A stretch of 64,000 nucleotides of DNA from Phycisphaerales bacterium. Its GTDB lineage: Bacteria > Planctomycetota > Phycisphaerae > Phycisphaerales > SM1A02. Positions 806-6,657 of the stretch are shown one piece after another. A program made the translations under genes and the position numbers. The notes under the pieces were generated by a model, which was not told where the DNA came from, made no database searches, and worked only from the letters and a program-made list of their open reading frames with translations. Positions within the stretch are counted from its first letter, which is position 1. Each line of letters starts with the position of its first letter. Location of the stretch: assembly GCA_029242715.1 (NCBI GenBank), contig JAQWTL010000025.1, positions 62,001-126,000 of the forward strand, given 5' to 3'.

Positions 806-1486
806 ATGAGTTTCAGTCAAGCCACCGGAACAACCTTCATGCCCTTGTTGAGCCGAATCGTCCTTGGTTCAGCTTTCCTGCTGTCTGGTTGGTACCACTG
901 CTTCTCAACAGGCGATTTCACGCCTGCCCAGCAAGACCAGATCAAGCAGATGCAGGCCTCCGTGGGCCATGGGGCCACAAAGGCCAGGGTGGTTGTCCTT
1001 CAGGATGGTGATGGGGGCGATGCTGAGACACCTCCAGCAGCGGAACCCAAGCCTGCGGATGACCCTCCAGCAGCCAAGGAGCCCGAGGGAACCCGAGCGA
1101 TGTATCGCATCGCTCTGGATCTTCACCAATGGGGCATCAAGGGCGCCGTCCCGCTGGCATGGGGCATCGCGGTCTTCGAGATCGTTGCCGGAGCACTTGT
1201 CCTGCTGGGTCTCTTCACGCGGCTGTGGGGTTTCCTGCTGGCTTGTCTGATCGGCGCTGGATTCGCCCTGACCAGTGTCCAGGAGCACGGCATGTTCCAG
1301 GACAATCCATTCCAGTGGCGTGGCAATCCTGCTGCGTACTACGAGATGTATTTCCAGGCAGCTGGTTTCGTGCTGGCGCTGGGTCTGTTCCTGGTCGGCC
1401 CGGGTGTGCTCGCCCTGGATAGCGTCGTCTTCGGGCGTCGCCAGGCCAAGGCGAATGCAAGCACACCGGCAAACCAGGCCAGCTGA
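806..1486 (+). CDS. DoxX-like membrane protein
   Basis: 226 residues with about four hydrophobic helices: one near residues 13-28, then a soluble acidic and proline-rich insert (about 35-98), then helices near 118-140, 142-160 and 180-203. The helix pattern, the LGSAFLLSGWYHC start and the ALVLLGLFTRLWGF segment fit the DoxX/SURF4-like family, whose members include subunits of quinone-linked oxidases and many proteins of unknown role. The insert between helices 1 and 2 is longer than in typical family members. An AGGGAG ribosome site lies about ten bases before the ATG. The next gene overlaps its 3' end, so it may be the first gene of the ExbBD operon or simply a neighbour. Confidence 0.7.
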   Translation: MSFSQATGTTFMPLLSRIVLGSAFLLSGWYHCFSTGDFTPAQQDQIKQMQASVGHGATKARVVVLQDGDGGDAETPPAAEPKPADDPPAAKEPEGTRAMYRIALDLHQWGIKGAVPLAWGIAVFEIVAGALVLLGLFTRLWGFLLACLIGAGFALTSVQEHGMFQDNPFQWRGNPAAYYEMYFQAAGFVLALGLFLVGPGVLALDSVVFGRRQAKANASTPANQAS

Positions 1487-2465
1487 ACCGATCGTGGATC
1501 GTTCGCCGGCACGGTTGAAGAGAAATCGTCGGACTCGCAAGCCGCAGCGTTCGCGTGCCGTCCCCTGGATGGCATCGATCCTGCTGCATGCTCTTGTCAT
1601 CGCAGCGGGGCTGGTCGTGACCTGGACAGTCGTCCAGGAAGATTCCAGGCCATTGCCTCGACCGATTGTTGCGGATTTCAAGGCGACGGCCTTCATGCCA
1701 GTGGATGAACTCCCGGTCACTCAGATTCAGGACAGCATTGAGCCCACATTGGAACCGCCACCCCCGATTCCCGTGAAGACGACCAGCCCTGAACAGGTCG
1801 ACATGACTTGGGCAGTCATTGATGCCTCGATGGCGGCAAGAGCAGGCGAATCAAAGCATGACGCGGGATTTGCAGGTGCAAGGGCAACCAATGCACGCTC
1901 GATTGTCTATGTCATCGATGCCAGCGGCAGCATGACGACCTGGTTGACCATGGTGCTCAAGGCGCTTGACCAGTCGTTGTCCCGACTTGATTCTGCCCAA
2001 CGGTATGCCGTGGTTTTCTTTCAGGGAGATCAGGCGATCGTTGTTCCACCAGATCGGCTGCAGCCAGCCAGGAGTCGGAATATCCGAAACACGATGAACT
2101 GGACACGGAAGGGCTCCAATCTGATGCCCGGCGGCGGCTCCAACCCTCTGCCGGCACTGGAAGTTGCCTTGCAGATGCAGCCCGACGTGATCTTCATGCT
2201 CAGTGAAGGCCTGGAAGGGCCTGGCAGCGACACGATGAATGGAACCTCGATGTTGCAGAAGCTGGATGAACTCAACCCGATTGCAGATCCTGTCACTGGT
2301 AATCGCTGGACACGTATCCAGTGCATCCGCATCGGCAGCGATGCGGGGTCGGCAGATGCAGAATCCTCGTTGATGAAAAACATTGCAGAACGTCATGGAG
2401 GGTCAGGTGGCTGGGTCAGCCTGAGCCGATCAGACCTGATGAATGATTCCGGAGAAGATCAATGA
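1455..2465 (+). CDS. TonB/TolA-type membrane anchor fused to a periplasmic VWA domain
   Basis: From the ATG at 1455 the protein has 336 residues. A basic cytoplasmic tail (residues 1-38) is followed by one membrane helix (39-61) with Ser41-x3-His45, the same S-x3-H pattern that TonB and TolA use to engage ExbB/TolQ. A proline-rich linker (PPPPIPVK, about 94-101) leads to a VWA fold starting at VYVIDASGSM, where D155-x-S-x-S forms the MIDAS metal site. No TonB C-terminal domain is visible. It overlaps DoxX by 32 bases and the ExbB-like gene by four (ATGA). The start is uncertain: GTG 1494 or ATG 1569 are alternatives, and all keep the helix. The VWA assignment is firm; the TonB-like role is inferred from the motif and the neighbours. 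Confidence 0.8.
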   Translation: MQAHRQTRPAEPIVDRSPARLKRNRRTRKPQRSRAVPWMASILLHALVIAAGLVVTWTVVQEDSRPLPRPIVADFKATAFMPVDELPVTQIQDSIEPTLEPPPPIPVKTTSPEQVDMTWAVIDASMAARAGESKHDAGFAGARATNARSIVYVIDASGSMTTWLTMVLKALDQSLSRLDSAQRYAVVFFQGDQAIVVPPDRLQPARSRNIRNTMNWTRKGSNLMPGGGSNPLPALEVALQMQPDVIFMLSEGLEGPGSDTMNGTSMLQKLDELNPIADPVTGNRWTRIQCIRIGSDAGSADAESSLMKNIAERHGGSGGWVSLSRSDLMNDSGEDQ

Positions 2466-3238
2466 TCAAATACAGACGCCGATTCCCAAAGGGAAATCAA
2501 ACGAGAAACATTGTCATCGGCCTGTTTACGTGTGCCCTTGCATCGCCGGCTTTGGCGGCGCCTGCACAGAGAACATTTGCCGAGGCCTTCTTTATTGCAC
2601 GCCGTGCAGATGGCGGCCTTGAAGTTCTCGGGAGTGTCGTCATCTGGCTGCTGCTGGCGATGTCCGTATTCGGAATAGGCCTGATCGTTTCGATGGCAGT
2701 AGCCAATCGGAGACGTACCATTCTGCCTGACGATGTCGTCCAGCGAATCGGAAAGCCTCTGAAAGCAGGCCAATATGAAAAGGCCATCGCTGTCGCCAAA
2801 GCGGATGGCAGTTATTTCGGTCGAGTCATGAGTGGCGGGCTCAAGCAGTCACCGCATGGATACGAGGCCATGGTGCGTGGCCTGGAGCAGGTTGCCGCAG
2901 AGGAGACAACGATTCGATTCAGGCGTATTGAACTGCTCAACGTACTTGGGCAAGTCAGCCCGATGATTGGTCTCTTTGGAACCGTGTATGGAATGATCCT
3001 GGCGTTCAGCGCGATCGTGGCCAGTGGAGGTGCAGCCGACCCCGTCATGTTGGCTGGTGGTATCGGTACCGCATTGACAACGACCTTCTGGGGACTGGTC
3101 GTGGCCATCCCCGCTCTGGCCGGATACGCATTGATTCGCAACAGGATTGATGAGCTCACCATCGAGGCGACCTTGCAGGCGGAAGAACTCGTGGCCCCAT
3201 TCCGTCCAGTTGATGCAGAGATGAAGCAGACGACATGA
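2462..3238 (+). CDS. ExbB/TolQ/MotA-family proton channel subunit
   Basis: 258 residues. A hydrophobic N-terminal segment ending ALASPALAAPAQ looks like a cleavable signal. Three membrane helices follow, near residues 55-80, 158-185 and 195-220. The family signatures GLFGTVYGMI and GIGTALTTTFWGLVVAIPALAGY are present. ExbB/TolQ proteins form the pentameric inner-membrane channel around an ExbD/TolR pair and turn the proton gradient into motion of TonB or TolA. Here the start overlaps the VWA gene by ATGA and the stop overlaps the next ExbD gene in the same way, so the products are probably made together. Which subfamily it belongs to (ExbB or TolQ) cannot be settled by eye. Confidence 0.93.
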   Translation: MIKYRRRFPKGNQTRNIVIGLFTCALASPALAAPAQRTFAEAFFIARRADGGLEVLGSVVIWLLLAMSVFGIGLIVSMAVANRRRTILPDDVVQRIGKPLKAGQYEKAIAVAKADGSYFGRVMSGGLKQSPHGYEAMVRGLEQVAAEETTIRFRRIELLNVLGQVSPMIGLFGTVYGMILAFSAIVASGGAADPVMLAGGIGTALTTTFWGLVVAIPALAGYALIRNRIDELTIEATLQAEELVAPFRPVDAEMKQTT

Positions 3239-3705
3239 GATCGATCCACCAACGTGGACCAGTCCGAGCCCAGGCAAGCCTCACGCCGATGATCGACGTG
3301 GTGTTTCTGCTGGTGGTGTTTTTCGTTGCGGTTTCACAGCTCGTTGATCGAGATCGAATCGACATGGATCTTCCGTCTCCCAGTCCATCTGCGGCTCATC
3401 AGCCTGAGGATGGTGCGAGGGCAGTCGTGAATGTTCTACCTGGACCTGAAGGAACCAGCATTGGCTATCAGGTTGATGGCCTTGTCTTCGCTGCCGATGC
3501 AACGGGTCAAGCCGCGCTGGTGAACCATCTCCAGGATCGACTTGAGCAATCACCGGATCTGTTCGTGAATGTTCGAGCAGATCGTGGAACAGCATGGGGC
3601 TGGGTGGCACCAGTGCTTGGCGCTGCAAGAGGTGCTGCAGCCATGGCAGGGCAACCAATGGCTCGTGTACGCTTGATCGTTGAACCGGGGGCGATGCAGC
3701 AGTGA
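3235..3705 (+). CDS. ExbD/TolR-family protein (first copy)
   Basis: 156 residues with a short cytoplasmic tail, one membrane helix (about 19-37) and a periplasmic domain. LTPMIDVVFLLVVFF is the ExbD/TolR signature, and Asp21 in the helix is the expected proton-carrying residue. The periplasmic part starts DRDRIDMDLPSPSPS, a typical ExbD linker. Both ends overlap neighbours by four bases. Two different ExbD proteins follow one ExbB here, which would allow an ExbD heterodimer in the channel; that is inference. Confidence 0.93.
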   Translation: MRSIHQRGPVRAQASLTPMIDVVFLLVVFFVAVSQLVDRDRIDMDLPSPSPSAAHQPEDGARAVVNVLPGPEGTSIGYQVDGLVFAADATGQAALVNHLQDRLEQSPDLFVNVRADRGTAWGWVAPVLGAARGAAAMAGQPMARVRLIVEPGAMQQ

Positions 3706-4208
3706 CCATCACCTCTCAATCAATGCAGGGATCGAATGCCGGCCGTACCCGGATGAGCTCGACACGCATCGGTGTCAATCTGGCATCAATGATCGACGTG
3801 GTATTCCTGTTGTTGATCTACTTCATGGTGGCTACGGATTTTCGCAAGGGCGAGGATGTGTTTCGCCTGGATCTGCCTGATCGAGGTTCTGGCATTCATG
3901 AAGCGATCTATGAACAGTCAGAGGAGCCCTTGATCATTCTGGTGCAGGATGATCCGACGGCTCCGGACAGATGTTCGGTGTCGATTGAAGGAGATTGGCC
4001 GCCAGTGAATGATCCTGGAGCTCTGGCTGAGTTTCTCTCAAGGCACCGGGTCGGTGGTACGGGAGAGGCTGTGGAGGCCTATTTCGCCAGCGATCATCCG
4101 ATCATCATCCTGGCCGGCAGCGATACGGCCTGGGCACATGTCGTCACGGCCTTCAACGCGGTCGTCCGAGCAGGCTACGATGCCGTGTCGCTTGAAGTCC
4201 AGCCCTGA
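3702..4208 (+). CDS. ExbD/TolR-family protein (second copy)
   Basis: 168 residues starting at GTG, which overlaps the preceding TGA (GTGA). The helix LASMIDVVFLLLIYFMVATDF holds the signature and the channel Asp32. The periplasmic domain (about 50-168) contains RVGGTGEAVEAYF and ends in a helix-strand pair as in ExbD. It diverges strongly from the first copy outside the membrane helix, so this is not a recent duplication. It ends 19 bases before the start of the helical-repeat gene. Confidence 0.92.
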   Translation: MTITSQSMQGSNAGRTRMSSTRIGVNLASMIDVVFLLLIYFMVATDFRKGEDVFRLDLPDRGSGIHEAIYEQSEEPLIILVQDDPTAPDRCSVSIEGDWPPVNDPGALAEFLSRHRVGGTGEAVEAYFASDHPIIILAGSDTAWAHVVTAFNAVVRAGYDAVSLEVQP

Positions 4209-4227
4209 TTTCACCAGGAGAGTTAAC

Positions 4228-6657
4228 GTGTTTGGAGTCGTTCGAACAGTCGGACAGTTGGTTGTCTTGCTGGCAACCATGACCACCATTTCCATGGGGG
4301 CACCGCCGGATGCCAGCACCCGGGTGTCACAGCTTCGTGCCCAGCTTGCCTTGAAGGATCTTCCTGTCCAGTCCCGCTCCAGAATCCTGGATGAACTGCT
4401 TGATGCACGTTCTCAGTTGATTCGTACACAACCGGATGATGCAGAAACCATCTTTTGGAAAACGGCACAGGCTGAGGATGCGATTCTCCAGGGTCTTTCG
4501 CTGAATGCCCTGGAACTGATCGTTCGGCACGGGCTTCCAGGTCAGATTCAGGAAGAGGCTTTCGATCGTTACGTGCGGTTGGCCTTGCAGGAAACGCGTG
4601 ACCTTGAGAAGGCTGTGCCTGGCGCAATCAAGGCGGCTCCGGCAGGCACCGATCTTCTGGCCAGGCTTGAAGCGTTGCGCGACAGCCGTTTGCCCATGCT
4701 CAGGGGTATCGCCCTTGTATTGGGATCGGAAAGGAACCTGGTTCCAGATCGGGACGCGGCGCTCCGAGAGGGCGTGCGGCTCCTGGCGGTTTCAGTTCCA
4801 ACCCTGCGGGGCAACGAAGAAATGGTTGCGTATCGGCAGTTGGCACTAGCGAAGCTGGCGATGGGTGATGAGGATGATGCACGATCGATGCTTGAGTCCC
4901 TTCAGCGAAAAGACATGGACAATCAACTTGAGAACATTGGTCTCAGGCTGGCACTCAACGAGGTTGTTGCACGTGTGGATGGGTGGGGGCAAGCGGCTGG
5001 TCGTGCCCAGCTCGTTGCTGCAACGAACAGCGATCCACTCGAGCGATTGCTCCTGGTCGAACAGGCCGCTCGTTGCTGGATGTTGACATCACGGGAACTG
5101 ATCGAGAGCGATGATCCAGAGCAACAGGCACTTCACGTGACAGTTGAACGCAATGCGATTGAGTCATTTCTTCTGCTTCTTCCTGAAAAGGGAGGCCTGG
5201 ATTTCAGTGATCCAAGGATCGTCCCTCTTCTGATCGAAGAACGGCTGGGTCGACTCGATATTGCAGATCTGCAGGCATCGCATATTCCTGATTCCGTGCT
5301 GATTGCCAAGGCGGCGCAACTTGTCGAATCCGAAGACACCGCCTTGCAAGCCAGAGAAATGCTGCTGCCACTCATGGACAAGTCGGGGATGATTCCTCGG
5401 GCAAGATCACGCATGATGGCCATGCTTGTTCGCTCGGAACTGACCGCTGGCATGGATGCTGCTGCGAGTGAACATGCCATTGAATGGTCACAGATCGCAT
5501 TGAGCCGTGAAGAAGCATTTGAAGGGGCGGACCTGGGGATGATTCACGCCACGCTTGCTCTGCAGGCATCTCCGGATGACAAGGAATTGCAATCACTTCT
5601 CAAGCAAGCCATCAGCAACATGATGGAGAATTTCCCCGATCACCCAAAGAGCGATGTCTGGCGATTGAAGGCGGGCGAATTCGCTCACCGCAATGGGAAC
5701 AAAATGGATGCGATGATGATCTATGCCACCATCCCGGCAGAGTCGCCAATCCGACCGGACGCCATCTCGAAACAGGCGTTTCTGATTGTCGAGACAGCTT
5801 TGCTTGAAGCCAACCGTTCAGCGGCTATTGCGGCAGCGCGAGCGCGGCTGAGTGAGTTGAAGCAGGCCCTTGACGAAGTCAATCCGAAGTACCGCGAGGC
5901 GATTAAACGGACGACGCTTGGTCTGGATCTTTGCCAGGCTCGTCTGGATCTTCTTGATGGAAGGCCCATTGATGCGCTGGACGTGCTCACCAGGCCCGGC
6001 ATGGACTCGATCGAGCCGGGGCTCGCTGTTTATCTGTACACGGCTCAGATCGATGCCGCCATGGCAACCGGTCGTGAGGCCGCTGTTGAGGCCGTCATTG
6101 ATGATCTGCCGTTCAATGTTGATGCAGAAGTTGTCCTGGCTACGTTGCCAGGCCTCCTGTCCGTGCCCGGCGCACCACTTCCCCTGGATGAGTTGCAGGA
6201 TCCGATTCAGCGGATTGCGGCATTGAAGTTGGCGATTGTCCTGGAAGCAAGTGCTGAATCAAACATCACCAATCGAATGTTGATCATCGAGGCGTTGCGT
6301 CGTGCAGGTCGGTGTGAAGAGGCTCTGGTCAGGCTGGAGAAAGTGCTTGAGTTCGAGCCGGATCTTGGAGATGCCTTGTTCATCAAGGCGGAGTGTCAGC
6401 GACTGGATCCACAGGCAGATCAAGCTGAGATCATCAGGATCTACACACGGTTGTCAAAGGGCGAACCAGCTGAGAACCCGGACAGGTTCTGGACATCGCA
6501 ACTGAGACTTCTTCAGTCAATGCAATCTGATGCACGCGACTCGGAGAAGATCCTGGCTCGGCTGAATCGACTACAGCGTCGGTACCCTGACCTTGGGGGG
6601 CCGGCGTACATCAGTGAGTTTGCGATTCTCCGCAGTGAGCTTTCGCCAACACCGTGA
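4228..6657 (+). CDS. Secreted TPR-like helical-repeat protein of the ExbBD operon
   Basis: 809 residues from GTG 4228, chosen because AGGAG lies eight bases upstream and the product then begins with a signal peptide (residues 1-24, ending ISMGA). The longer frame back to 4009 overlaps the ExbD gene and has no such start. The rest is almost wholly alpha-helical, with repeated A-x3-L-x3-G patterns; the clearest tetratricopeptide-like repeats are near the C-terminus (RRAGRCEEALVRLEKVLEFEPD). I see no catalytic motif. As the last gene of the set it may be a periplasmic scaffold for the VWA/ExbBD complex. Function unknown. Confidence 0.82.
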   Translation: MFGVVRTVGQLVVLLATMTTISMGAPPDASTRVSQLRAQLALKDLPVQSRSRILDELLDARSQLIRTQPDDAETIFWKTAQAEDAILQGLSLNALELIVRHGLPGQIQEEAFDRYVRLALQETRDLEKAVPGAIKAAPAGTDLLARLEALRDSRLPMLRGIALVLGSERNLVPDRDAALREGVRLLAVSVPTLRGNEEMVAYRQLALAKLAMGDEDDARSMLESLQRKDMDNQLENIGLRLALNEVVARVDGWGQAAGRAQLVAATNSDPLERLLLVEQAARCWMLTSRELIESDDPEQQALHVTVERNAIESFLLLLPEKGGLDFSDPRIVPLLIEERLGRLDIADLQASHIPDSVLIAKAAQLVESEDTALQAREMLLPLMDKSGMIPRARSRMMAMLVRSELTAGMDAAASEHAIEWSQIALSREEAFEGADLGMIHATLALQASPDDKELQSLLKQAISNMMENFPDHPKSDVWRLKAGEFAHRNGNKMDAMMIYATIPAESPIRPDAISKQAFLIVETALLEANRSAAIAAARARLSELKQALDEVNPKYREAIKRTTLGLDLCQARLDLLDGRPIDALDVLTRPGMDSIEPGLAVYLYTAQIDAAMATGREAAVEAVIDDLPFNVDAEVVLATLPGLLSVPGAPLPLDELQDPIQRIAALKLAIVLEASAESNITNRMLIIEALRRAGRCEEALVRLEKVLEFEPDLGDALFIKAECQRLDPQADQAEIIRIYTRLSKGEPAENPDRFWTSQLRLLQSMQSDARDSEKILARLNRLQRRYPDLGGPAYISEFAILRSELSPTP

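Follow-up and report, generated by a model that had tools for sequence, protein, structure and literature searches.

A predicted Ton/Tol-like envelope motor with a vWA protein as its candidate force transducer in a Phycisphaerales genome

What does an ExbB-ExbD-ExbD motor serve when the neighbouring gene encodes a single-helix protein that ends in a vWA domain? The question is raised by an operon at 806-6657 of a 64,000-nucleotide stretch of DNA from a Phycisphaerales bacterium (hereafter the window; positions 62001-126000 of contig C28 in the 3.2 Mb draft genome G000). The whole is best explained, with a probability of roughly three in four, as a Ton/Tol-like envelope motor in which the vWA protein is the force transducer. 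Our inferences on subunit numbers, docking, coupling to proton flow, metal binding, partner and job are as follows. An inner-membrane proton channel would be built from five copies of ExbB and the two ExbDs, the latter probably paired as a heterodimer. Ser41 and His45 would hold the vWA protein to the rim of ExbB, and the Pro-rich linker of that protein would bridge the periplasm. Driven by proton flow, the vWA domain would then be swung or pulled; it may bind an outer-membrane or cell-wall partner, perhaps via its metal site and a secreted TPR protein, and the likeliest job would be a housekeeping one, that is, outer-membrane upkeep, division or surface assembly.

Open reading frame (ORF) calls place six genes head to tail on the + strand: a DoxX-family membrane protein (806-1486, Pfam DoxX 3.4e-9), which adjoins vWA in most relatives as the upstream operon partner, the vWA protein of 336 aa with a basic tail, one helix, a Pro-rich linker and the vWA domain (1455-2465), an ExbB/TolQ-type motor subunit (2462-3238, Pfam MotA_ExbB 1.2e-25), ExbD-a (3235-3705, Pfam ExbD 5e-14), ExbD-b with a GTG start (3702-4208, Pfam ExbD 1.1e-14) and a secreted TPR-like helical-repeat protein of 809 aa, also with a GTG start (4228-6657, Pfam TPR_6 1.3e-5). 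The last keeps its place in relatives, and its structure model is all-helical, at a confidence too low for structure search. The vWA start codon lies within the DoxX gene with a 32-base overlap, the vWA/ExbB, ExbB/ExbD-a and ExbD-a/ExbD-b junctions overlap by 4 bases each and a 19-base gap precedes the helical-repeat gene, spacings which fit a single transcription unit. The two ExbDs resemble each other only in the helix (38% over 39 aa). ORFs and Pfam matches thus agree with the initial annotation on the vWA protein with its single helix, on ExbB, on the two diverged ExbDs and on the secreted helical-repeat protein; the DoxX gene at the start of its range had gone unmentioned.

The linkage of vWA and motor genes recurs among relatives. 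Of 61 related genomes, sampled up to the order and counted by hand from locus tables, 46 have the vWA gene directly beside ExbB or with one gene in between, so the check proposed with the initial annotation finds the vWA-ExbBD linkage present. ExbB is followed by two, sometimes three, ExbDs (a third at loci L078 and L086) and usually then by the repeat protein, and DoxX stands upstream in most of the genomes grouped as f1-f4. Between vWA and ExbB many genomes carry an extra gene, whose product of ~400 aa begins with a signal-like stretch; this gene is lacking there in the window and in the sampled genus mates, and f5/f6 genomes often have two tandem vWA genes before one motor (L078, L079, L083, L084, L086, L087). 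In a class-wide sample, a vWA match at E <= 1e-12 was obtained in 81/81 genomes; among 20 class-wide loci fetched, 18 have ExbB near vWA and 19 have the S-x3-H motif described below. A scan of genome contigs with a single protein returned only two distant loci, both in Verrucomicrobiota.

Exceptions to this order were followed individually. In six f4 genomes DoxX-vWA lies apart from the motor genes, and the ExbB there is 53-57% identical to that of the window and falls in the same clade in 5/5 of those sampled for the tree; motor loss in f4 was therefore rejected, the operon being split with ExbB present elsewhere. Likewise, the supposed absence of the system from G030 was rejected, because the window-type system (system 1, with vWA1 and ExbB1) is present on its contig C8 (L143) in the usual gene order; its vWA has diverged strongly, and pattern search found neither S-x3-H nor D-x-S-x-S in it. 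The near-complete genomes G010 and G022 have neither vWA1 nor a close ExbB1, a joint absence that speaks for the vWA-motor link, and keep the second system described below, and two other genomes without system 1 are 72-74% complete.

The helix of the vWA protein (1566-1640, codons 38-62; 36-62 in the structure model) carries S-x3-H, with Ser41 kept in 60/67 and His45 in 63/67 vWA relatives in an alignment from the related loci, while the neighbouring helix columns vary freely. At least three further vWA relatives have Ala-x3-His. S-x3-H occurs in 59/67 relatives versus 26/558 background hydrophobic segments (~5%), the latter taken from other ORFs and including some spurious ones. The Ser41/His45 motif recognized in the initial annotation is therefore where it had been placed, and its conservation is above chance and specific to these columns. 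Past the helix, A73 (44/67), F75 (43/67, with Leu in 16) and P82 (54/67) are conserved among relatives, and the conserved VA-x-F lies ~28-30 residues beyond His45, where the low-confidence model has no strand. Williams-Jones et al. (2025, PMC12204202) describe inner-membrane vWA proteins with an S-H-L-S helix, a Pro-rich linker and a "motor box". The window protein also has a Pro-rich linker, and by analogy with that paper its P-x3-VA-x-F segment (1656-1700, codons 68-82) is a candidate for such a box, with ExbD as the expected pairing partner.

The motor itself looks active, as judged from conserved proton-path Thr and Asp residues in ExbB and both ExbDs. The window ExbB is closest in sequence to TolQ and aligns with TolQ of known structure; its Thr174 and Thr208 correspond there to TolQ Thr145/Thr178, and all 29 ExbBs compared have both. 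Asp21 of ExbD-a and Asp32 of ExbD-b, the predicted pore residues, sit in the pore-helix motif M-I-D-V-V-F. According to a review (2026, PMC12905483), the Ser and His of TonB/TolA contact a conserved Ser and Trp of the first transmembrane segment (TM1) and a Pro of TM3 in ExbB/TolQ. By alignment, the conserved TM1 Ser68 and TM3 Pro217 of the window ExbB may correspond to these docking residues.

The vWA domain (1899-2465, codons about 149-336) is supported as a vWA fold at the C-terminal end by two kinds of prediction. The VWA_2 match (1.1e-5) is 0.5 bit below the Pfam cut-off, and the structure model, in which strands and helices alternate from residue 149, matched inter-alpha-inhibitor, CMG2 and integrin I-type domains in the PDB (best E 1.9e-8). 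A full metal-ion-dependent adhesion site (MIDAS) consists of D-x-S-x-S together with Thr and Asp from two further loops. Among vWA relatives Asp155 (67/67), Ser157 (66/67) and Ser159 (62/67) are kept, the loop-2 position is Ser in 53 and Thr in 10 (63/67), and only 40/67 have an acidic residue at the loop-3 position. The metal site had initially been called intact; this holds for D-x-S-x-S at 155-159, whereas Ser229 and Glu251 replace the loop-2 Thr and loop-3 Asp. From these residues, the five-residue MIDAS is non-canonical in the window's vWA family and the window site is partly degenerate. A "no MIDAS" label for the f2 genomes was rejected, the triad there reading D-x-S-x-A. As a separate observation, the genomes grouped as g33 offer a natural case in which the metal triad is lost and the vWA gene also stands apart from the motor.

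The same genome holds a second, paralogous system on contig C38 (L038), in the order vWA2 - small TPR - ExbB - ExbD - ExbD - large TPR, an order found in most of 32 genomes fetched for vWA2 with ExbB, of which a few loci reach contig ends. In a quick tree the two ExbB families fall into distinct groups with support, and ExbB1 and ExbB2 of G000 are 34% identical. In vWA2 the Ser and the His are each kept in 31/31 full-length sequences, and all five MIDAS positions are kept in 32/32, that is, the site is intact, unlike that of the window. Because the same helix motif and motor set are kept in two diverged families, the link between vWA and motor is argued to be functional. In genome G054, one locus (L180:4975-10057) reads vWA2 - small TPR - TPR2 with ExbB/ExbD missing between, and an ExbB-ExbD-ExbD set lies elsewhere (L145).

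Could the motor serve TonB-dependent receptors? Profile searches detected no TonB_C (PF03544), TonB_2 (PF13103), plug, receptor barrel or TolB_N in G000, and neither PF03544 nor PF13103 matched the window vWA protein; control genomes matched as expected for four of the five profiles, TonB_2 being matched in one control only. Among the 61 genomes, TonB_C and plug co-occur (22 both, 31 neither; Fisher p 6e-9), whereas vWA-ExbB linkage is independent of TonB_C (p 0.76) and of plug (p 1.0) and is kept in 24/31 genomes with neither; related genomes are not independent, so these p-values are a guide only. Because no TonB-dependent receptor was detected, the vWA motor is predicted not to serve such receptors in G000. 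Two OmpA-domain lipoprotein candidates were found there, on contig C18. In addition, contig C22 (L041:6300-7944) carries a third set of a short ExbB, a weak ExbD-like protein and a single-helix Pro-rich protein of 259-279 aa, which has neither vWA nor TonB_C and is a possible unrecognised transducer.

By its sequence features, the candidate motor box apart, the window system belongs to the kind described from predictions in 2025 (PMC12204202). Family 1 of that paper has one TPR, one TolQ-like and two TolR-like genes as neighbours, and the PVC group with Planctomycetes is listed; AlphaFold 3 models of relatives dock via the conserved His at the motor rim. The helix Ser/His, the vWA fold and the same kinds of neighbouring genes (one TolQ-like, two TolR-like, and TPR) are shared with family 1 as presented there. 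However, vWA comes first here (DoxX-vWA-ExbB-ExbD-ExbD-TPR), whereas in family 1 it is downstream of TPR/TolQ/TolR, the published order being that of L036 (Verrucomicrobiaceae); moreover, the DoxX partner, the second paralogous system and the loss of L and S from S-H-L-S distinguish the window system from the family 1 described. New here are possibly the co-existence, in this gene order, of paralogous motors that are both paired with a separate vWA protein, as well as the DoxX and small TPR partners and the class-wide retention independent of TonB. In the parts of PMC12204202 consulted, no mention was found of DoxX, two systems per genome or MIDAS state.

Compared with TonB-ExbB-ExbD, the three-part plan, the ExbB/ExbD families and the S-x3-H helix are the same, whereas here the ExbDs are two different ones and a TonB C-terminal domain and a TonB-dependent receptor were not detected in the genome. 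Compared with TolQ-TolR-TolA (Tol-Pal), ExbB is nearest TolQ and the operon TPR protein recalls CpoB, whereas the end is a vWA domain, and a TolA/TonB-type C-terminal domain and TolB_N were not detected. A Verrucomicrobiota locus (L037:768-6591) reads TPR - small TPR-like - ExbB - vWA with no ExbD, and both S-x3-H and Asp are missing from its vWA helix, so that neither class of vWA protein in PMC12204202 fits it cleanly.

Several points weigh against a vWA force transducer. We know of no experiments on any member of this kind. Only S and H of the TonB/TolA S-H-L-S motif are retained, with Gly52 and Thr56 at the L and S places, and ExbB lacks a Trp at the position that corresponds to the TM1 Trp of E. 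coli ExbB/TolQ, though another Trp (62) is common. The monomer model has a mean pLDDT of 48.6, with the poorest values in the tail and linker. A vWA1 relative without an adjacent motor occurs in four g33 genomes and in G054, and the g33 metal site is D-x-S-x-A with a TPR gene adjoining vWA1 (L091, L092, L093, L094). Furthermore, no phenotype of vWA force transducers is known according to PMC12204202.

The separations from the motor in f4, g33 and G054 would suit a vWA protein that is an anchored assembly or adhesion factor, with ExbBD as a scaffold or sensor and no proton drive, all the more as vWA domains often serve assembly; yet S-x3-H is retained in most of the split cases and the proton-path residues are kept, and we regard this explanation as unlikely, although it is the least improbable of the alternatives. 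It is a good deal less likely that ExbBD acts in trans on a different transducer, such as the Pro-rich protein of C22, with vWA merely an operon neighbour. The third set in the genome invites this idea, but this set comes with an ExbB and an ExbD-like gene of its own, TonB_C was not found in the genome, and the linkage of vWA to ExbB is old and seen in each of two paralogous systems.

The second vWA class in PMC12204202, a pore-helix vWA with TolQ and no TolR, likewise has a helix-anchored vWA adjoining a TolQ-like gene, and the window helix might by this precedent sit as a pore helix within the ExbB ring. Here, however, ExbDs are present, two of them with a pore Asp in the operon, and helix 36-60 has S-x3-H and no Asp or other acidic residue, which makes such a placement very improbable. 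Least probable of all is a Zorya-like anti-phage motor: it was suggested by a weak match of ExbB to a ZorA model (13 bits), no other Zorya-type protein was matched, and the class-wide distribution is that of a core gene whereas defence genes are patchy, so the Zorya identity was rejected.

As for the Ton/Tol-like motor with a vWA transducer, the TonB-like, motor-coupled vWA protein of the initial annotation is supported by the linkage, the helix motif, the motor residues, the lack of detected TonB and TonB-dependent receptors and the agreement with PMC12204202, while the adhesion and the pulling that it also proposed we infer only.

If coupled in this way, the system would be a conserved envelope motor in a class where many genomes have no detectable TonB or TonB-dependent receptors. 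Since nearly all genomes retain it, it is likely to have a core role. We put forward, tentatively and as a rather doubtful extension, that the vWA-tipped motor, with two ancient paralogous sets in many genomes, might be the main or only proton-driven outer-envelope transducer of the class, filling the housekeeping role played by Tol-Pal in Proteobacteria, with intact- and degenerate-MIDAS arms dividing the labour. The two paralogous sets, one with an intact and one with a degenerate metal site, offer a built-in comparison, and the proposal is testable by the mutant types used for TonB/TolA, at the Ser/His, the pore Asp and the metal site.

Elsewhere in G000, a lone ExbB-like gene without ExbD lies on contig C9 (L040:6616-8570) beside TraB/GumN-like and ispA/dxs-like genes. 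A promoter scan upstream of the operon found none, and no plasmid match for the sequence was found. Ahead of the operon, a tRNA-Leu gene occupies 614-697 on the opposite strand.
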